Shown piece by piece: positions 5,272 through 64,000 of a DNA stretch of 64,000 nucleotides. Positions within the stretch are counted from its first letter, which is position 1. Each line of letters opens with the position of its first letter. Below the pieces are notes generated by a model. It was not told the DNA's origin, did not search any database, and saw nothing but the letters and a program-made list of their open reading frames with translations. Origin of the DNA: Tribonema minus (lineage: Eukaryota; Sar; Xanthophyceae; Tribonematales; Tribonemataceae); NCBI GenBank assembly GCA_017506865.1, contig JAFCMP010000521.1, positions 682,001 through 746,000 on the forward strand, in the 5' to 3' direction. The translations under genes were made by a program, and so were the position numbers.

Positions 5272-8200
5272 TTACTGAGCGGGGCCAAAGCCAAACTTGG
5301 CGTAGTGCTCGGCGAGCGGCAGGCCGTCCACGAGCTCCTGTGCCCACATGCCCCCTGCAAGTGTACAGGTAAAAGAATAGGCGCGCGCGAGCATGTCAGT
5401 CATGTGTCGTGGCCGTTGGTGGACCACCATTGTTGAATGCAGGGGTGTGGGTGAAAGAACAGGCGCGCAAGTGTGTCAGTTATCATACTAAGTTACGTGT
5501 AGTGATGGCCCTCGGTTGACCACTGTTGTTTTACAATGTACTGCAGAGGCAAAATGAGCACAAAACATCCGCTGCCTCAGCTTCAAATCACCTTTGAGAC
5601 AGCCTACATGACCAGGCAGTTGTTGCAGTCGACCCCGGGGGGGGGGGGGGCATGCAAAGTCAATTGTGACCGCATTGGTACAACTGTTTGAGAAACAGAT
5701 GGCTAAAATGGCCGCGCACCTCTTCATACGGTGACCTTGCATGCACATTCAATGTCGAAATGATGCTCAAACCACAACTTCAGCTGGCAGATGGCGATGA
5801 TGGCCAAGTGCCGTTGTTGAGCTCTGTTGCGGATGTTGGTGCAAATCCTTTTGATACGGTAAACTTCGTATGCACATTCAACATTTTTAAAATGCAATTA
5901 TGCTCACACCACAACTTACAGATGGCGATCATGGCCAGGCGGCCGTTGTTGAGCTCCTTGTTGCGGATGTTGGTGCGCTCCTCGGGGCTGGAGGGGTACA
6001 GGCCCAGCGGGTCAAAGCCCAGGTCACCCGGGAAGTAGTCCTCCTTAAGGTTGGCAACGAAGCCCGCGCCCAGGCCGGTCTCCTGGAAAGACATGAGCGG
6101 AAATGGTTGCATTGGTTAGAAGGGTGCAGGAGGGGTGTGGCTGGTTTGCATCTGTGTGCATGAGAATGAATTTAATGCAGTGTGTCTCCGCACAAGCTAG
6201 CATGAATCTGACGCAGCAGTGTGCCTCAGCATGAGCTAGCAGCGTGCGAGCTGCAACTCCAAAGTCATTCATGGCGTCACCGCCTTTGTGATCAGGGCAC
6301 AGCTTCGCTCCTCAGTTTGCAGACAGTGCTTTTTTTATTTAGAGGGGAAGGTGCAGGTCACAGACTGTAGGCATGTGATGCTTTCTCACAGAGCTTGAAA
6401 CATGCACATCTGCTGACCACTACATGCAGCACAGAAGAAGCTGTCTTCAAGACCAAGCTCCAAACATGTGCAACACGACCATTACATAGTAATCAAGAAA
6501 GCGGCAGTGACCTTGATTATCCTGTACAATTGCAGTAGAACCCTCGCATGTGCCGACATGCCGTAGCAACCGTGCGCATGCCAGTCATACAGCAACAGAA
6601 ACGTGAGTGTGCGCAGCGGGCAGCGCCCGCAGCTGCACTTGCACTCATCACTGTCTTGGTGGTACCGGCCATACCAAAACAGAAAAGAGAGCTTGCGCGG
6701 CGGGCAGGGCGTGCAACCGCAATTGCACCTTCGCTGACCTTGTGGTGCCTGTCATACTGTAACAGTAAAGTGAGCTTGCGCAGCGTGTAACTGAAGTTGA
6801 AGTGACGCTGACCTTGTAGTCGCTGCGCGACCAGCCCTTGTCGATGGTGAGGAACTCCACGGCGCCGACACCGCACACGAGCGCCAGCGGCAGTGCGTCG
6901 AACTCCTTCATGGTCTCCTGCAGGTGGAATGCGGCCGGGCCAATGTCCTGCGGGCGACAGAGCAGCAGCGCGGCGTTTGCGGTGTACGTGAGCGATTGAG
7001 ATTGATGGTGAATATGGAAGTTCAACTTGTCCTCAGCTAAATTACTGAGCGGCATGCTGTATCACATGCAAGTAAGCATGGCGGGAGTTCGAAAGTGTGG
7101 CGGCCACAAGTGACTGGCAGAGCTGGCGCTGGGAAAAGCCACGACATGCACAGCCTTCTATGGTGACAAAAATCTTACACAGCAGCAGTGCTCAACAGCC
7201 TCTAAGCTCCAGAATGTTTGATGCCGGTGGTCCACTGTGCTCGTGACATGTCTCGCTATGGCAAGCGTCACCGAATTGAGATACCGGATATCAAAATTTG
7301 CGGAGGCCTAATTTCACTTGTGCATACATCGCATTTCAAATCCACCGCGTTTTGCAGAGGTCACAGCAAGCGCTATATGCTGCAGATACACAGAGAAGAA
7401 TACTGCAGTGCATGTTCTGACAGCAAGCTCTGTATACCACAGTTACACAGAGATAAGTACTCCTCAAAGTGCAGTCGTCCTGACAGCTGAATATCTCCAT
7501 CTGCTTCTGCCGCGTCACGCGGCGTGTTTCATGAAATGGCGTGTCAGAGCACGCATTGCGGCTGCGCGGTATACAGTATACTTCTACTCTTTGAAACAGA
7601 ACATTGAATCCTGACTTACCCTGCCGGCAGTGCCGAAGAAGGGGTGGAAGTTCTCCTGCACAACCATGCCAAGGGTGGCGAGCATCGCCACGCGGCCTGC
7701 AGTAAATGTAACACAAAACAGACGGAATGTCAGCACCATCGGCGATGTCAAGATAATGTCAAGGATATGTCAAGGATTTCAGGATGGATTGTCACCAAGT
7801 GGTGAGTACGTGTGATTCAGAAGCGTGTACATGGATGTGATTTCATGTTCACAACCTTCACAACATGAAACAAGCTTTACAATGCCAAAACGACGAGCAA
7901 AATAATTGAATACTTGCGCAAGTATGTGAATTCACAAGGTCATGGTACATGCTCTCAAGACGGATCATAAAACTCTACACTCGTTGAATATGCACAAAGT
8001 TGTAAGATGCTCATGCAAAGTTTGGGGGCAAACTGTGGCGGAATGACTGTGCGTCACGAATCGTGCTGCACCCTGAGCTCATAGTTATACATAGCTGCTA
8101 GCTAGCTCTCTGTCACACCTACACAAGGAGGCCAGCTTACACGAAAATCCGCGCAATTCAGGTATCCATTCATATATATTGGAGACGTAAAGGCCACAAC

Positions 8201-54388: not shown

Positions 54389-54424
54389 ATGGAGCAGGAG
54401 GAAGACGATGAGGAACGTGGCTAA
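54389..54424 (+). other. Short upstream ORF overlapping the cyclase-kinase start
   Basis: An ATG at 54,389 opens an 11-codon frame (MEQEEDDEERG) that ends at TAA 54,422-54,424 and overlaps the proposed start at 54,408 in a different frame. It could repress translation, or it could mean that the true first exon lies upstream, since a plausible acceptor ('ctctgttcag') ends at 54,380. Confidence 0.4.
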
Positions 54425-57400
54425 ACACATCGTCGCGGGCACCTTCAATGGGAACGCGAGTGCTACGCTGTGGTTGGTGTCCTGGCTGAAGCCACTGGTC
54501 TCTCAGAAGGGCGCAGCAGATGTCAAATCTTCCAGACACTACGTGGCTTTCAGGCGATCAGCCCGGCTGCAACACCGTAGCGAGCACATCGCCTGCACTG
54601 CTCTTGTCGCTGTTGCCGTGACATGGGCGCAGGCCTGGAGCTGGCTGGACCTCGGGGACATAGTCACGTCAGCCGCTGCCTACACAGGTGTTGCTGTCGC
54701 GATATGCGGCCTGCTGCTTGCTGCTGGCTCTGCCACACCAGCAGTCACCAAGGTGGTGGACCTCTTTTGTGCCGTGGGCCTGCTGGCTCTTCCGACTATC
54801 CTTGAGGCCACAACGCACACACCCTTGCTGCTCGGCGGCGGACTGCTGGCGGGTATGGCGTTCTTGCTGCTTGCGGCCTCGCTCCGCACGGCGCATGCCA
54901 CGGCGCTCTGCCTGGCCGCCTTTGCGGCGTACGCAGCCTGCGCTCTGGCGACGCCGGACGACACCAGGCGCTTGGACTCGGGACACCGGATCCTGGCGCT
55001 GTGTGCCCTGGGCGTGCTCGGCCTCGCGGCGCTGCAGGCAGCGTGGACCCTGGACTGCCTGGTGCTGCAGGGCTACAGGGCAGCGGCGTCGGCGGCGTAC
55101 ATGCGCGCGGCGGCGCTGGAGGAGGCCGCGCTCGGCGACGGCATCGTCGCCGCGCAGCTGCCCGCCGCGACGTGGCGCACGCTCCTGGAGCTGCGCGGCA
55201 GCGCCGGCGGCGGCGGCGGTGGTGGGGCCGCAAGAAGCAGGCGCGCCGGCGGCGAGTCCGCTGGCGGCGCCGCCGTCAGGCGCTCGCTGACGCGGTTCGT
55301 TGGCGCCACGCGCCGCTCCACCGAGCGCCGCCTCGTGTCCATCGTCGCCGTGCGCGCGGCCGACGGCGGCGCGCTGCTGCACGCCGCCGTCGGCGACAGC
55401 AGCGGCGCCGCGGCGCTGGCCGACGCGCTGCTGCGCGAGCTCGACATCTGCCGCGAGCGCGCCGGCGCCGCGCGCCTGCCGACGTGCGGCGGCTGCCTGT
55501 ACGCGGCGTGCGTCGGGCTGCCGGCGTCGCTCGGCTCCGCCGCCAACGACGCCGCCGCCGCGGTGAACTTTGCGTGCGACGCCGTCGCCGTCGGCGCCGC
55601 GCTCGGCGTGGAGGTGTGCGCGGGCGTCGCGAGCGGGCCCGCGGTCGGCGGCGCCGTGCTGACGCGGCCGCTGGCGTACCACCTCATCGGGCAGGTGTTC
55701 ACGGTCGCCACGAGCCTCGCGCACCTCGGGCAGGCGGGCCAGGTGAGGTGCATGGCGGATGGGGTGCGACGGCTTTGTCGGTGTACGCTGTCGCCGGATG
55801 CGTGGCTGCGGTGGCGCGCGACACGCTCCTCAAAGTCTCCCTGCTGGCATGTCGTCTGACGTGCTGCTGCATTTGACTTGGAGTTGTACAGTGCAAACGC
55901 GGCCGCCCTGTGAGGGTCACGCTGCGCATCGCGGCCGCCGTGTTTGCCACACAGTCGCCGCGCACAATGCCCCGACGTTAGGTACGCTCTGTCCGCAGGC
56001 GGCACACATTCAATAGATTACACGCTATTCAAAAGACAAGACGCCAGTACGCCAGCCCCTACGGCAACGCCGCTCTTATGCCATAAGTACACGCCCCCGC
56101 TGCCGCCGCCGCGCGCAGGTGCTGCTGGAGGACAGGACGGCGCTGCTCATAGAGCGCGACGCCGCGTCCGTGCTGCCAAGCAGCGCGCGCTTCGCCGCCG
56201 CCGCCAAGCCCGCCGCGCCCGGCGCCGTGCCGGGAGCCGCGGCCGCCGCCGCTGCCGCCGCCGCCGAGGAGCCCCCGCGCGTGTTCCCCCTGGTGCGCCC
56301 CGTGCAGCGCAGCTGGTGGCAGGTGGCGCGCCGCGAGGCGGTGTGCGCGGCGCTGACGACGGGGGACCCGCCGCCGCCCGTCCAAGTGCTGGGGGGATGG
56401 GGGCCCGCGGGCGGCGGCGGCACGGGCGCGCCGGCGGCGGCGTGGGAGGCGGCGGCGGCGGCGCGGCGCAGCGGTGGCGGCGACGCGCGCGAGGAGAAGG
56501 AGTACTCGCTGCTGGAGCGCGAGCGGGACGACGGCGTCACCAGGGAGGTGTTCCTGACGCGGTTGCGCGGGCTCGATGCGGGAGACGGGTGGCTCGCGGT
56601 GCTGTTGCCGGACGGGCTCGGCGGCGGCGGCGGCGGCGGGGGGGGGGCAGGGGATGGGGCGGCGGCGGCGGGGGGGACGCTGGAGGGGCTGCGGCCCGAG
56701 TCGCGCGCGTTTCTGGCGCAGCCGTACGCGGACGGCGCCGCGCGCGCGGACGACGTGGACCGCAGGTGGCTGCAGCTGGCATCGCCGGCGCGCTGCGGTG
56801 AGGGGGACGGCAGCAGCGCTCACGTCTTGGCGTGTGTGTGTGCATCATAGGGTAGAGCAGCGGCCGGTTCGCGCGAGCAATGCAGGGCCTGAGATGCAGC
56901 ACACATGGAGAGTAAAAGTCCTTTGCGGAAAGATGGTGAAGCTTGCGCTATCTGTGAAGTTTTGTACTTGAAGTAGCATGACGCGCCCCTCAGCGCTGAT
57001 GTGACGAGGAAGCGCGGCCTGTCCAGGTCACTCGACCCCGGCGCGCCGGCGCAGGCACTTGCTAGGGACGCAGGAATGCAACGGCTGCTGCGCGTGCAGA
57101 GCACTTGACTGACCGTTGCGCCGCATACGCCATCTGCAACACGCTTTCAGCCCAAAACAGCACGTCGGGCGCACGCCTGCGAACGCCAGCCGCTGCTGTT
57201 CCGCGGTCTGCGCACCGCTTGCTCTGCCGCAGCTTTCCGCCACCTGCTCAGGCGTATCCGCCCGCACGCGCCCATCGCCGCGGCGCCGCTGCCGCCCTCG
57301 CTGAGCTGCCCTCCGTCCCCCTCCCCACCCCTGCGCTGCGCAGCGCGGCTGGCGGAGCTCAAGTCCACCTTCTACCCGCGCCTGCCGCTGGAGTGCGCGC

Positions 57401-60400
57401 TCGCGGCCGCGCTGCTGATCGCCGCGGTGGCGACCGCGGACTGGCCCGCGTGGCGCATTGCCGCGGCGCTGGCGCTGGGCGCCGCGGCGGCAGCGGCGGC
57501 GCTCAACGTATCGCGCGCAACGCGCCGCGCGCGCCGCCCCTCGCCCGTCGTCAGCGGCGCCAGCGCGCACGGCCGCGCTGCTGCCGCCAATGACGGCGCC
57601 CGGAAGGCTGCTCTGGAGGGCAGTGGCGCCGCTGGCGATGCGCTGGCAGACATGGAGGCCGGCGGAGCGGCAGCGGAGGCGGCGGCGGCGCCGCGGCATG
57701 CAGGGTTGAAGTCCCGCCTGCTGCCCGTGCCGCTGGCGGCGGACGTGGCGTTTGCGGCGTGCGGCGCGGCGCTGCTGCTGGTGTGCGGCAGCGGCGGCGC
57801 CGGGGACGGCGCGGAGGCGGCGCTGCTGGAGCCCGCCACGGCGGCAGCGGCGGTGCTGCTGCTGGTGGCGTCGCTGTCCAGTGCGGTGAGCGTAGCACGC
57901 GAGCGGAAGCGTCGCGTCTCATGCGTGCTGGCAGTGGACTGTTTTGACGGCGTTTTTTCTTGAATGGAACGTCACGATGATTGCGGTTGGCTCGCGATGC
58001 CGTGCCGTGCTGAGGTCGTGGGGACGACAGGCGGCGCTGTGCTCATAGCAGCAGTGGTCTGATTGCCTCGCAGCTGCTTGCTGGAGAATGCCAATCGCAT
58101 TTCTCATCGAGGTTCGGCAATGCTCATTGCACACGCGGCGCGCAGCAAACGCTGCCGTCAAACACAAACCCACGTACCGCCCCTGACATCTCAATGCCGC
58201 GCTTTCGCTCACGCCCAACATTCCACAAACACTCACACTCAGGGTGTACATTGCCGTACGCACGGCAGCGGCGCGCAATTACCGCTGAACGCAATTGCCC
58301 CGCAAGGCCCCAACAGCCGCACGCAACTGCAGGCTCTGAATGCCGCACCACCGCTGGACTCACGCTCTCTATGCAGAGCACTGCGGCCGTCTCTCTGATA
58401 CTTGCCGCCGTTGCTGCTGCTGCTGCTGCTGCTACCGCCGCCGCAACTGCGGCAGCAGCGGCGGCGGCAGCAGAGGCGGCGGCTGCTGCTGCTCCCGCTG
58501 CTGATCCTGCTGCTGACTCTGCGCCTGGCTGTTTCGCGCGCTGCGCCGCTCCGCTGCAGGCGCGCTTCGCGTCCGCGGCGCTCGCGCTGCCACTCTTTGG
58601 GGCTGCGCTCATCGCGGCCGGCGCCTTTGCGCCGGACGCCCTCGGGCCCTCCATCGCCGCCGCGGTCACCGTGGTCCCTCTCGCGCTCCTGTACAAGCGC
58701 GAGATGGAACGTCAGGCACTCAACCTCTTCCTCAGGTATATATGAACAGAGTTGTCGGGCGCCGTGCGCGCCGTGCTGTTGGTGCGGTGGATGCTTGTGG
58801 GTTGGGGCTGTGCCTCACTGCCAGCGAACATGCAGCACGCCGCAACAGCCCATGCGCGTCTCTCCGTAGTGCAGCGGTGCTCTCATACAGCGCTGCATGC
58901 TCCGCTGCGAGCAGAACGTCGCCGCAGGGCAGTAGCTGAATTGGTTGCAGCGCTGTGCCCCCCCCTGCTGTCGTCGCTTGCGCATTACATGACACGTCGT
59001 CTCAGGGATAGGGTGACCCTGACGTCACTCTTGACTCTGACCGAGACTCTCATCAGCAGCAATGTCATCTCACCTGCGTCGCTCCCGCGCGCGCTCCGCT
59101 GCCATGTAGAGTCGACGGCGACGCCGCGGCGGCGGCGGCGGCACTGGCGCAGCAGCGGCGCGAGACGGCCGTCGCGCTCAGCGCGGCGCTGCCGCACCCC
59201 GGCCTCGCGCGCATCCTCTGCGGCACGCCGCGTCGCAGCAGCAGCGCCGGCGGCAGCGACGGCGGCGGCGACGACGCAGGGGCGGCGGCGCTCGCGAGCC
59301 CCGGCGGCAGCGGCAGCGGCGGCGGCGGCAGCAGCAGCGGCGGGCTGCTCGCGCGCGAGTCCGTGTCCGTCGTGCACGTCGCCATGCGCTCAGCGCTGCA
59401 GCTGCAAGGGCTCATCCCGCCCGCGGACCTGTGCGTCTTCCTGGACAAGGTGTTCAGCATACTCGACGGCGTGACGCGCCGCTTCGGCGGCTTCCGCGGG
59501 CGCGTGTGCGGCTGCGGCTACGTCGCCGTGTTCGGCGTGCCGCTGGGCGACGGCGCGGCGGCGGCGGCGGCGGACGGCGCTGCGGCGGCGGCAGGGCGGC
59601 CGCTGGACCACGTGCGCGCGGCGCTGGAGGTGCGGGGCACGCGCGTGCATTTGCGCGTTCGTCGAGGCGTGCTGCTGAGCAGAGCTGCTGCGTTTCGACC
59701 GTTGCAAGCACGCGCCGTCTGATGTGACGCTGTGTCGGGTGCCGTACGGCACGTGTGCATCTTGAACCCCGCTGTGAACACCTCCGCGGCGTCGACTCCT
59801 TCCGCTAGCTGTTGCAGCGCGTGCGCGTGCGGGCAGCGCTGCCGCAGCCGGGGTTTGGTATGTTGGCGCAGATGCAGTTGCAGAGCGCCGCCGCACCACC
59901 CAGGCGGCCTGACTGAACGTGCACTGCGCGCGCAGCGGCACGTTGCATGCGCGCGCCGCTGCCGCTCGGCCGTTCACAACAGCGTCAGTGCACTTGCTCC
60001 CTGTCACGAGATGGCAGTAATGCCTGCTCATGCCGCCGGCTGAATGCCGTGCTGCCAGGACATTCTCCTGCCCACACGCCGTTTTCCATGGGCTGCCCAC
60101 CTTGCAGGTGGCGCAGTTGCATGCGGAGCATTGCAGCAGCTGTACTCGACCACTGCCACACGCACAGCATCGGCCTCGCCCCCCCCCCCCCCCCCCCTTC
60201 CCCCCCCCCTTCAAAGCCACTACCGCCACCTCCCCCTCGCCCCCCCCCCCCCCCCCCCCCCTCTCCTCGCTTCGCAGATGGTAGAGCTCGTGCAGCGCGA
60301 GGTCGCGCAGTTCGGCGCCAAGCACCGCCTCTCCCTCGGCCTCTGCATCGGCGTCGCGCACGGGCCGCTCGTGGCGGGCTTCGTGGGCGCCGGCGCGCAC

Positions 60401-63385
60401 TTCGCCTTCGACGTCGGCGGCGAGGCCGTCGCCGCCGCGGCAGCGCTCGCCGCGTGCCCCGCCGCCGGCAGCGGCGGCAGCGTCGCCGCCACCACGGTGC
60501 ACGTCGGCGAGGCGACGGTGGACGCTGTGCGGCGTGTCGCCGCGCACGCGGAGGTGCGCACGCGCTGGTAGGGCTAGGGCTAGGGTCGCAGTCAGCAGTG
60601 TGTGTGTTCAGTGGCGGCAGCTGCCTGCGCACATGCGTGCCCCGCACGCCAGCGGCGCACGCGGCAAGATCGTCGCGCAGCGTGCGAAGTGACTGCGGCG
60701 GATGCCTGCGCAATGGGGCGCGCCGCCCCCGTGCCCGAAGCGTTTCATTCCGGTCCTGGAATGAGCTGCAGCCACGGCCGCTGCGGAGGCGAAGATGGGG
60801 TAGCAGCGCTCATCGTGCGGCGCACCGCGCGGCACTGATGGCTCTAGACACCGAATGACAGCGCTCGGCGTGAAGTGCCCAGCGCAGCGCTTGCACAAAG
60901 TGTGTTGGCGAGGGGTCAATTGATGCCTTGCGCCGCGTCGCCGCACACGCTGCGGTGCGGACAGCCAGTGGTAGACTCTACCTACTTGAGAATTTTTGTC
61001 CGAATGTGGCAGCGGCGCTCACCCCCTCTCCCCTCTCAACACACATATTCCCCTCCGCCGCCGTCACGCCGCCTTCGCAACTGACACATCGCACCCCCTC
61101 GCATACCCACCCGCTGCTCACCATCACGCCAATCCCTGACAGGCGGCGGCGGCGGCAGCGCGCGCCGCCGCAGCCGAGGCAGCTGCGGCAGCGCTCGAGG
61201 ACGGCTGGCGCCCCGCCCTCGGCGGCGCCGCTGCCGCCGGCAGCATTGCGGGCTCCGTGGCGGCGGCAGTGTGGGCGACAGCCGGCGGCGCCGTGGCCGC
61301 GCGCGGCGGCGACGACGACGGCGGCGCGCGGCACTGGGCGTCAGCGCTGCGTTTCGAGGAGGTGGACGGGGGGGTCGCGATGCCGACGGCGGGGCATGGC
61401 ATGCGGCGCATGCGGTGAGCGGTGCGGCGCGGCGCGCCCAGCTCTCTCCGCTTCAAGCCTCTGAAGTAGGGTTGTGTGTTGAAGAGGGGAGCAGCCTGAG
61501 AAGCGCACAGTGAGAGCGACACCAGCAATGCAGATGGCGGGGCACGGCATGCGGCGCATGCGGTGAGCGGCGGGCGCCTCGAGCGGCGCAATGCGCTCGC
61601 TGCTCCGCGCGCAGAGTCAAGTCTGAGGGTTCAGGCGTCACGTCACGGCGCGCGATGCCGCAGCCTCAGTAACCCGCTGCGCCCAATGACCCGAGAGTTC
61701 ACCCGTGCCCACCTGCACTTGTTGCTGTCGTCTTCGCCCGCTGGCTCTCGCTAGCGGCCACATTCCACGCCCCAGAGTGCGCAGCTGTTACGCGCCAACG
61801 CCATGCACACGCACTGACTGTACCGCCCGACGCCCCCCGCCGCCCCCCCCCCCCCTTGTGCAGCGCGTGGCGCATGCACATCGGTGACGCCGCGAGCAAC
61901 AGCCTGGACGCCGGCACGATGCGCGAGCCGACGCTCGACGTGAGTACGCAGCTATGCGCGCGCAGCCGAGATGTGCAAGTCGCGTCGCGTGCGTGCCTCA
62001 AGCGTCCGCAGCGAGAGCGGCGCTGCGCTGCGGCGCCGCTGCGTCGATGCGCAGTGAGGGTCGCGACGGTCGCAGCCGCTGCACCGCGGGCGGGCGCGCC
62101 CCGGCGTGCGCGGGCGCGGGCGTTGACGGCTTTTGAGATGTCGTGACCAGCCTCTTTGCTGCGCCGCACCGCAGGCTGGCGCGCCTCGGCGGTCGCGGGC
62201 GCTAACGTCTTTTGAGATGTGCTGGTGGCATCTGCTGAAGGTTGTTCTTAGATGTCGTGACCAGCCTCTGTGCGTGCAGGTGGCATCTGCCGAGACTCTG
62301 CTGAGTTGCGCAGACAGCAACTTGATCTACTGCCGATGGCAGTGCCGGTGGGTCCATCATGTAGCCTCGCGCACATGCGACACCGCCGCGGTGCGATGCG
62401 TGCGTGCATACATGGGGCACCTCGGGCGTCACGCAAGCGCGCGCTTTGCTGCGGCAAGGAACAGCTTCTGGACCTGGTGCTGCCAGCTAGGGTAATGTGC
62501 CAAGAGCCTGTGTCTCTGTTGCAGCGCGCACAGATTGGCTGAGCGCTGTTGTGACTGCCCATGATGGCGCTTTCGTACGTCTTTGGCACATGTGCGTGTG
62601 GGCTGCGGTAGCTGTTTCCGTCTGGCGTCGATGCAGTGTGGCAGCAGCTGCGGCGGGCGGCGCCTGCGACTGGGTATCGCCGCTGCTGCCGCTTGCAAGC
62701 CGTTTCGGGGGCCCGCACAGCCCAATCAGCAAGACGCAGCACCTCAAAAAGCACGCTACATGCTTAGCAACGCATGCGTGCAGTGCGCGCCCGACGCCCT
62801 TCTGACCGCCCCGCAACTCGCTTACGCCGCCGCCGCCGTGCCGCTGCTGCCGCCGCCGCCGCGCGCAGGACTTCGACGTCGTGCGGCTGCTTGGCACGGG
62901 CGGCTACGGCAGCGTCTTCCTTGTGCGTGAGCGGCGCGGCGGCGGCGCCGCGCACGCCGTCAAGGTCGTCCCCAAGACGCGCGTCGAGGGCGTGACGGAC
63001 TGGATGCGCGTGGAGCTGCGCGTGCTCGCGCGCACGCACCACCCCAACGTCGTCCAGCTCGAGTTCTGCCTGCAGGTGCGCGTTCGCGCTGTTCGCTGTT
63101 GTGTGGCGGCGCCGCGTGACGGCGCAGCACAAGAAGTACGCGCCTTGCGGCCCCGTCTGTGTAGAGCACGGTGTCATTGCGTGTGAGGGGAACGTGGTGC
63201 AGCCGCTGCGTGTGTCAAGTTCTGCCTGCAGGTGCGCGCGCGCGCGCTGCGCGCCGGTCTCGTGGCAACGCAGCGAGCGACCCAGTTGTCCTCGCTGGTT
63301 GACTGCTGCCATTGTAGAGACGAGGTCTACTAGCGCGCCGGAAGTGCGTTCCGTCAGACCGGTCAGCGCTCTTTGTTGCTGCTGC

Positions 63386-63417
<32 letters not shown>

Positions 63418-64000
63418 ATGATGCTGCTGTGTCGCAGCGGCAGCACGGCGCGGCGGCGGCGGCGAAGGCCGCGCGTGTGTGGCTCGGTTTGTGTAGAGCT
63501 CGGCGCCGTTCTCTGCGCACCACTGTACTGAAGTGTGTGTGCTCCGCGCCCTCGTCTGGCAACACAGCAACCCAAATTACCTCTCTGGTTGCCTTCTGCC
63601 ATCACGAGGTGTACCAGCGTGCCATTAGTGTGTTCGGTCAGACCATTGCTGGATTCGCTACGCGCGCGTGCGGTGCCGCAGACGGCTTTGGCGGCTGAGG
63701 CTGCCCGCGCAAGGCTCGCTCGTGTGTAGGAGGGCGTGGCGCCATTCCGTGTGAGAGGGCCAATGTACGTGCGCGTTCGCATTCGTACACCACTGCTGCG
63801 CGCCAGCCCGGGGCTCCTTGCCGCAGGACGCCGCACACACACCTGTCGCTGCACGTGGCATCGCCCGCCATAGTCCCCCCCCCCCCCCCCCCCCCCCCGG
63901 GTCTCAACACCCCCCTGGCTCCCCTGCCCCGCGAGCCGCTCACCCCCCGCCCCCCCCCTTTCTTGTCGCTTATCTACCCCCTCTCCCCCCCCCGTGCAGT
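54408..64000 (+). CDS. Transmembrane adenylyl-cyclase-like protein fused to a protein kinase; partial, continues past the window
   Basis: Exons are 54408-55742, 56119-56797, 57344-57885, 58377-58735, 59110-59629, 60278-60553, 61143-61414, 61864-61939 and 62869-63075; another probably starts at 64,000. All nine join in phase, giving 1,422 residues so far. Residues about 62-225 have six hydrophobic helices. About 303-460 is a class III cyclase-like domain (RRLVSIVAVRAAD, LPTCGGCLYAACVG, VCAGVASGPAVGGA). About 690-970 holds a second set of hydrophobic helices. About 1055-1240 is a second cyclase-like domain (VSVVHVAMRSA, FLDKVFSILDGVTRRFGGF, GLCIGVAHGPLVAGFVG, FDVGGEAVAAAAAL). A kinase N-lobe starts at 1354: DFDVVRLLGTGGYGSVFLV, HAVKVVPK, and the alphaC Glu in RVELRVLARTHHPNVVQ. 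The plan is 2x(6TM + cyclase) as in animal-type adenylyl cyclases, with an AGC-like kinase added. Probable location is a membrane, with the kinase cytosolic. Most helix limits and exon 4's acceptor are approximate. Confidence 0.75.
60181..60262 (+). repeat. Poly-C runs forming the pyrimidine tract before exon 6 of the cyclase-kinase gene
   Basis: Runs of C separated by short T/A-containing pieces end in 'ctctcctcgcttcgcag' at the exon 6 acceptor (60,277). The homopolymer replaces the usual mixed C/T tract. Confidence 0.9.
60926..60975 (+). repeat. Copy of the exon 6 end and donor of the cyclase-kinase gene, in intron 6
   Basis: 'gccgcgtcgccgcacacgct' then 'gcggtgcgg' with 'agtggtag' after it repeats 60,527-60,572 at an offset of about 400 bp. 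The GT of the donor is kept, so it is a possible cryptic site. Confidence 0.8.
61535..61572 (+). repeat. Copy of the exon 7 end and donor of the cyclase-kinase gene, in intron 7
   Basis: 'ggcatgcggcgcatgcggtg' followed by 'agcgg' repeats 61,396-61,422 almost exactly, 148 bp downstream, with an intact GTGAGC donor. Use of this donor would add sequence containing in-frame stops. Confidence 0.88.
62120..62285 (+). repeat. Interleaved short repeats in intron 8 of the cyclase-kinase gene
   Basis: 'ttttgagatgt' with 'cgtgaccagcctct' and 'ggtggcatctgc' each occur twice in overlapping order, suggesting nested tandem duplications. Confidence 0.7.
63217..63245 (+). repeat. Copy of the exon 9 end and donor of the cyclase-kinase gene, in intron 9
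   Basis: 'agttctgcctgcaggtgcgc' repeats 63,062-63,081, 155 bp downstream, with the donor intact. The surrounding intron also contains a weaker duplication (63,255-63,380 against 63,550-63,660). Confidence 0.88.
63370..63432 (+). repeat. CTG/TTG triplet microsatellite in intron 9
   Basis: Mostly CTG with TTG and ATG interruptions over about 60 bp. It is intronic in the cyclase-kinase gene. Confidence 0.9.

Follow-up and report, generated by a model that had tools for sequence, protein, structure and literature searches.

Here we analysed a 64-kb stretch of the genome assembly of the xanthophyte alga Tribonema minus (C518:682001-746000, hereafter the window) together with the adjoining 20 kb downstream, and we describe a gene whose presumed start lies at window position 54408 on the forward strand and which runs past the window's end. 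The reading that we favour, with a confidence somewhat better than even, is that the whole gene specifies one chain, a membrane signalling kinase that would combine input from the membrane with a phosphorelay by means of two pseudocyclases and a receiver domain (REC). The encoded order is a hydrophobic cassette, a cyclase-like domain (C1), a second hydrophobic cassette, a second cyclase-like domain (C2), a linker and an AGC-type kinase carrying REC between its DFG and APE motifs. An earlier note, made from the letters of the window, had proposed an adenylyl-cyclase-like membrane protein fused to a kinase. Its gene is confirmed as a feature of the sequence, larger than the window showed, and the order of its domains, its transmembrane (TM)-C1-TM-C2 plan resembling that of animal adenylyl cyclases and its continuity into the kinase are all borne out.

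Gene structure and domain content

The gene model comprises 21 exons, nine in the window and 12 downstream, that form a single frame of 2,828 codons with no in-frame stop, the stop codon of the gene standing at 76327, about 12.3 kb beyond the window's end (coordinates beyond 64000 continue the window numbering). Each of the 20 modelled introns is of the GT-AG type. The nine window exons had been said to join in phase, and they do so without a stop, the frame continuing through the 12 further exons, which encode HRD, DFG, the receiver insert, APE, the kinase C-lobe, a low-complexity tail and the stop. In a leave-one-out codon score trained on the gene itself and its own introns, the gene's own frame ranked first of six in 21/21 exons, the lowest value being that of exon 4 (0.08 versus 0.04 for the next frame), and exon GC content at third codon positions (GC3) lay between 0.66 and 0.98, compared with a GC of 0.64 in the introns. 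Translation is taken to start at 54408 simply as the first in-frame Met, and an upstream exon is possible. An 11-codon upstream open reading frame (window 54389-54424), out of frame with the gene, overlaps this presumed start. The features of the gene, all on the forward (+) strand, are as follows.

54408..55742 (+): exon 1, first in-frame Met, hydrophobic cassette 1 and most of C1; open frame, GT donor
54588..55046 (+): membrane cassette 1, six hydrophobic segments, residues 61-213, by hydropathy scans
55323..56148 (+): C1, residues 306-455, split by intron 1; PF00211 22.9 bits; catalytic positions replaced, first metal Asp ambiguous
56119..56797 (+): exon 2, remainder of C1 followed by a Gly/Ala-rich linker
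57344..57885 (+): exon 3, initial part of membrane cassette 2
57382..58694 (+): membrane cassette 2, residues 685-958, with hydrophobic segments numbering six by GES or seven by Kyte-Doolittle
58377..58735 (+): exon 4, continuation of membrane cassette 2 with a poly-Ala run
59110..59629 (+): exon 5, N-terminal half of C2
59351..60538 (+): C2, residues 1053-1232; PF00211 31.8 bits; catalytic positions replaced
60278..60553 (+): exon 6, C-terminal half of C2
61143..61414 (+): exon 7, Ala-rich linker joining C2 to the kinase; coding ahead of any in-frame ATG
61864..61939 (+): exon 8, kinase lead-in; two in-frame ATGs
62869..63075 (+): exon 9, kinase N-lobe with Gly-loop, AVK Lys and alpha-C Glu; PF00069 on the spliced kinase
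64000-64112 (+): exon 10, its first base being the last base of the window
64920-64994 (+): exon 11
65297-65491 (+): exon 12
66124-66301 (+): exon 13
66724-66846 (+): exon 14
68142-68198 (+): exon 15
68596-68751 (+): exon 16
69711-69990 (+): exon 17
70331-70492 (+): exon 18
71358-71467 (+): exon 19
72923-73193 (+): exon 20
73829 to the stop at 76327 (+): exon 21

Both cyclase-like domains pass the cut-off of the class III cyclase family PF00211 (21.9 bits) with the scores listed above, and the family reaches 48.3 bits on the one chain in two stretches, while reversed (two) and shuffled (two of the six shuffles made) controls gave no family match up to E 10 in 4/4 cases. In the PDB, C2 comes closest to an adenylate cyclase of bacterial type (4p2m, E 4.3e-9), with adenylate cyclase 9 farther down (E 1.5e-5), and the similarity of C1 to PDB chains is weaker (best E 8e-4). 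Catalytic positions were read from an alignment (MAFFT) to four plasmid-borne bacterial cyclases, the position names (metal, Asn and Arg) following what we take to be class III biochemistry. Over C1 and C2 together, seven of the eight metal-binding and transition-state positions are replaced (at Me1/Me2/Asn/Arg, R316/G362/T432/S436 in C1 and A1063/C1107/A1197/A1201 in C2), the eighth, the first metal Asp of C1, being ambiguous. We therefore read C1 and C2 as pseudocyclases, domains that, judging from their residues, look catalytically dead. The two cyclase-like domains of the earlier note are thus present as relatives of PF00211, and its idea of a sensor in the membrane that signals straight to a kinase on the same chain is supported as an architecture but not as cyclase activity, since working cyclase domains find no support in these residues.

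The spliced kinase matches PF00069 with 173.4 bits, exon 9 alone giving 25.7 bits, below the cut-off of 31.7. As predicted, a kinase N-lobe follows the second cyclase-like domain, with the Gly-loop, AVK and Glu in exon 9; with HRDVKPDN, DFG and APE also in place, the kinase is seemingly active. Searched without its insert, it falls in the AGC group, the best 60 of 749 PDB sequences being named RSK, AKT, S6K, Greatwall, PKC-iota or PKA, with scores that do not separate the sub-families (RSK 168.8, AKT2 165.9, Greatwall 162.0). The motif ahead of APE is, as we understand it, without the Thr of the PDK1 site, presumably like Greatwall and NDR-like kinases. No hydrophobic motif F-x-x-F was found in residues 1956-2120, the part of the C-terminal tail that was scanned; a tail free of this motif is a trait of Greatwall and Rim15, but the absence is weak evidence. 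Among viral contigs, one match to the kinase was seen (45% over 52 residues). Between DFG and APE stands an insertion of 365 residues, beyond the window, that contains REC (PF00072, 55.0 bits alone and 50.7 bits within the kinase, cut-off 30.2; best PDB match PleD, E 1.2e-8). Four of its five catalytic residues are kept (the first acid, Asp1651, Ser and Lys) and the second acid is Pro, so that by its residues the receiver appears near-canonical.

The second hydrophobic cassette of the earlier note was likewise recovered by hydropathy. Ahead of C1, five segments pass the Kyte-Doolittle threshold of 1.6 and a sixth (residues 61-80) passes GES only, the latter scale additionally flagging residues 8-27. 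In cassette 2, Kyte-Doolittle yields seven segments and GES six; several are Ala-rich and some almost pure Ala. Stretches of C1, C2 and the kinase are marked by these scans as well, which therefore contain false positives. The six TM helices that had been proposed ahead of the first cyclase-like domain are plausible, and a count of six in cassette 2 is uncertain by hydropathy.

Proposed mechanism and alternative explanations

In the mechanism that we propose for the single chain, both membrane cassettes would form a sensor of the adenylyl-cyclase type, and C1 and C2 would pair as in an adenylyl cyclase while yielding no cyclic nucleotide, acting instead as a conformational relay that passes a change in the membrane through the linker to the kinase N-lobe. 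REC, placed in the activation segment, would receive the phosphate of a His-Asp relay on Asp1651 and gate its own kinase, which would in this way combine the membrane signal with the phosphorelay signal. A more specific form of this proposal, in which a 12-TM pseudocyclase is the receptor for an active AGC kinase gated directly by the His-Asp receiver inside its activation segment, is advanced tentatively, and we consider it rather less than an even bet. Parts for a relay are encoded in the assembly (158 Mb, 554 contigs), which holds 22 HisKA matches (21 above cut-off) and two Hpt matches.

Several observations weigh against the single-chain signalling kinase. Twelve of the 22 HisKA matches lie on contigs C21, C90, C179 and C223, which possibly belong to another organism, and of the 20 best receiver matches 18 fall on the possibly foreign contigs C90, C179, C21, C112, C223 and C144. 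According to an excerpted account of Greatwall, that kinase is still fully active when its insertion is replaced by four residues (PMC5342071), and such an insertion therefore need not regulate. At the first metal position of C1, MAFFT places a nearby Asp, R316 being our own gap-free reading. The helix count of cassette 2 is unsure, and with an odd number C2 and the kinase would come to lie outside the cell. Finally, since the codon scores are self-trained and the exon boundaries were picked by us for open frames and homology, they speak of consistency and not of independent proof.

The alternative that survives best, although we regard it as unlikely, is that two adjoining genes are present. 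The first, for a membrane pseudocyclase, would stop after exon 6 or 7, and the second, for the kinase, would begin at an ATG in exon 7 or 8. In-frame ATGs at 61380 (late exon 7) and at 61874 and 61919 (exon 8) make such an internal kinase start possible, which counts against a single chain, and exon 6, if unspliced, meets a stop at 60569-60571, shortly past C2. Exon 7, however, scores like coding sequence over the 79 codons ahead of its first in-frame ATG (0.45), whereas none of 305 overlapping open 240-base intron windows reached 0.35 (maximum 0.03), so that the exon is most simply entered via splicing. Exons 6-9 are, moreover, joined in phase, and the five words resembling poly(A) or TATA signals that were looked for, AATAAA, TGTAA, ATTAAA, TATAAA and TATAA, do not occur between exon 6 and exon 9, although the organism's own signals may differ from these words.

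It is improbable, in our judgement, that C1 and C2 form an active cyclase whose catalytic site is unusual, the kinase being regulated by, or regulating, cyclic nucleotide synthesis. Each domain can be recognised as a class III cyclase, C2 retains the Y/F-D motif Asp (D1190) and one Asp can be aligned near the first metal site of C1, but the replaced catalytic positions described above oppose such activity, and canonical motifs occur on other exons in the same genome.

We give still less credence to the whole locus being a decaying or non-expressed gene. A partial copy of exons 18-20 on contig C216 has already decayed, exon ends are repeated in introns and the cyclase domains are degenerate, but the gene itself keeps its long frame free of stops, its kinase motifs intact and an exon GC3 above the GC of its introns. 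Its exons also diverge less than its introns from the C216 copy (28 mismatches in 295 aligned exon sites against 285 in 1,642 intron or flank sites; Fisher p 5.5e-4; gap positions excluded, 134 in exons and 846 in introns or flanks), a comparison that fits constraint on the intact gene but covers no more than the kinase C-lobe and the last part of the activation segment. Least likely, in our view, is that unrelated genes were fused by misassembly, for although a single assembly is the source, the splice joins are in phase and the codon bias is the same on both sides of every candidate join.

Related sequences and neighbouring features

In a genome-wide PF00211 search, four exon matches were found, all on contig C115 and none at the gene, which the exon-by-exon search missed because its single exons are too weak, the spliced chain being the one that matches. 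The region C115:50358-57691 holds these other class III cyclase exons, with canonical metal-Asp motifs at 56.1-56.7 kb and a canonical Asn/Arg motif at 50.4 kb; in the match at 57350, which looks degenerate, a stop interrupts the searched frame. Paralogues were sought in the assembly with C2, the receiver and the kinase C-lobe as queries. Both matches of the C2 query were at its own locus and none elsewhere in the assembly; the receiver gave six, the three best at its own locus and three distant; and the kinase C-lobe gave 51, namely three at its own locus, two in the decayed C216 copy and 46 others. Among these others, two places, on C174 and C147, were compared with the chain and matched it in kinase stretches only. 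The decayed partial copy, which covers exons 18-20 and their introns, lies at C216:13166-15221 (40,000 of the 59,179 bases of this contig were examined).

Five exons of the gene (7, 9, 14, 16 and 19) have their 3' end and 5' splice-site region repeated degenerately, once or twice, in the next intron, exon 19 with an additional third, shorter copy; for exon 20 the repeated stretch falls short of the donor. The repeats lie at 61377-61422/61525-61570 and 63059/63215 in the window and at 2829/2938, 4702/4834/5022, 7408/7661/7778/7949 and 9064/9276 in the downstream stretch L005. Tandem duplication across exon-intron borders may thus lengthen introns in this gene. Telomere-like TTAGGG/CCCTAA tracts also lie within its introns (L005 3174-3210, 3294-3330 and 4820-4990).

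On the contigs C90, C179, C21, C112, C223 and C144 the receiver and HisKA matches stand in long open frames, partly as look-alike pairs (C90/C179), and a second organism is possibly present in the assembly. The assembly also has 92 light-harvesting matches, as befits a photosynthetic eukaryote. Exons of this kind occur on the minus strand at about 1021-1218 and 5906-6127 of the window and at C518:677950-678114, with a spacing of about 5 kb, possibly forming a polyprotein or a tandem array. One translated light-harvesting protein had as its best PDB match the polyprotein LHC chain 9vfj, followed by chains labelled ACP and CAC, which we take to be chlorophyll a/c types. A test for the phycoerythrin family PF02972 yielded no match, but none in the controls either, and is therefore empty.

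Comparison with known systems and implications

Mammalian-type membrane adenylyl cyclases (TM1-C1-TM2-C2, for example AC9; PDB 4p2m, 7yz9) have two cassettes with a class III domain after each, as here, and differ from the present gene in that its catalytic residues are replaced in both domains and a C-terminal kinase and receiver are added. Of all PDB entries, C2 resembles these chains most. We assume 4p2m and 7yz9 to be the bacterial six-transmembrane (6TM) enzyme Rv1625c. The receptor guanylyl cyclases of animals likewise combine a membrane receptor, a kinase fold and a cyclase fold on one chain; the present chain is multi-pass, its cyclase looks dead and its kinase live, and the kinase follows C2 instead of standing as a kinase-homology domain ahead of an active cyclase, the reversal of order noticed earlier being upheld. 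The kinase-like domain of receptor guanylyl cyclases is described as lacking catalytic residues (PMC1262709; this and the papers cited below are drawn on in excerpt), and the proposed protein would by analogy be the mirror image of these receptors, whose live cyclase is paired with a dead kinase domain.

Hundreds of residues between DFG and APE characterise Greatwall and Rim15, and the 365 residues found here are of that kind. Greatwall/MASTL is an AGC kinase with a DFG-APE insertion of about 500 residues, the biological role of this insertion being described as open (PMC5342071). Its counterpart in budding yeast, Rim15 (PMC6941129), carries a receiver domain, at its C-terminus (PMC8510515) and not inside the activation segment as here, and a membrane or cyclase part is unmentioned in the excerpted descriptions of these kinases.

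Fusions of cyclase and kinase are already known, and the earlier claim of a wholly new arrangement was consequently too strong. The amoebozoan cyclase kinases (43 in Physarum, 66 in Acanthamoeba) are transmembrane proteins with a cyclase domain joined to protein kinases, as here, but one cyclase is flanked by two kinases there and a receiver in the activation segment is unmentioned in the excerpt (PMC4758236). Pkn2 of Myxococcus xanthus combines an active Ser/Thr kinase, a cyclase-like domain and a TM segment; it is bacterial, however, with the kinase first, a single cyclase-like domain and the TM segment after that domain (PMC1262709). In the kinome of Phytophthora infestans, as excerpted, transmembrane kinases are in the TKL group alone (PMC3019232). 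A double pseudocyclase joined to an AGC kinase that is split by a receiver is set apart from these fusions by their published descriptions, as far as the excerpts go, and no description of such a protein was found in a literature search by title and abstract start that covered few subscription papers.

It has been argued that the membrane anchors of 6TM cyclases may act as receptors (PMC4821796, as excerpted). If the gene is expressed as one chain, the architecture of adenylyl cyclases would, in agreement with that proposal, have been reused purely as a receptor and transducer, and two-component signalling would be linked to a eukaryotic AGC kinase at its activation segment. Should direct gating by the receiver hold true, a phosphorelay would switch a eukaryotic Ser/Thr kinase from inside the kinase's own T-loop, and this would suggest a function for the unexplained insertion of the Greatwall type.

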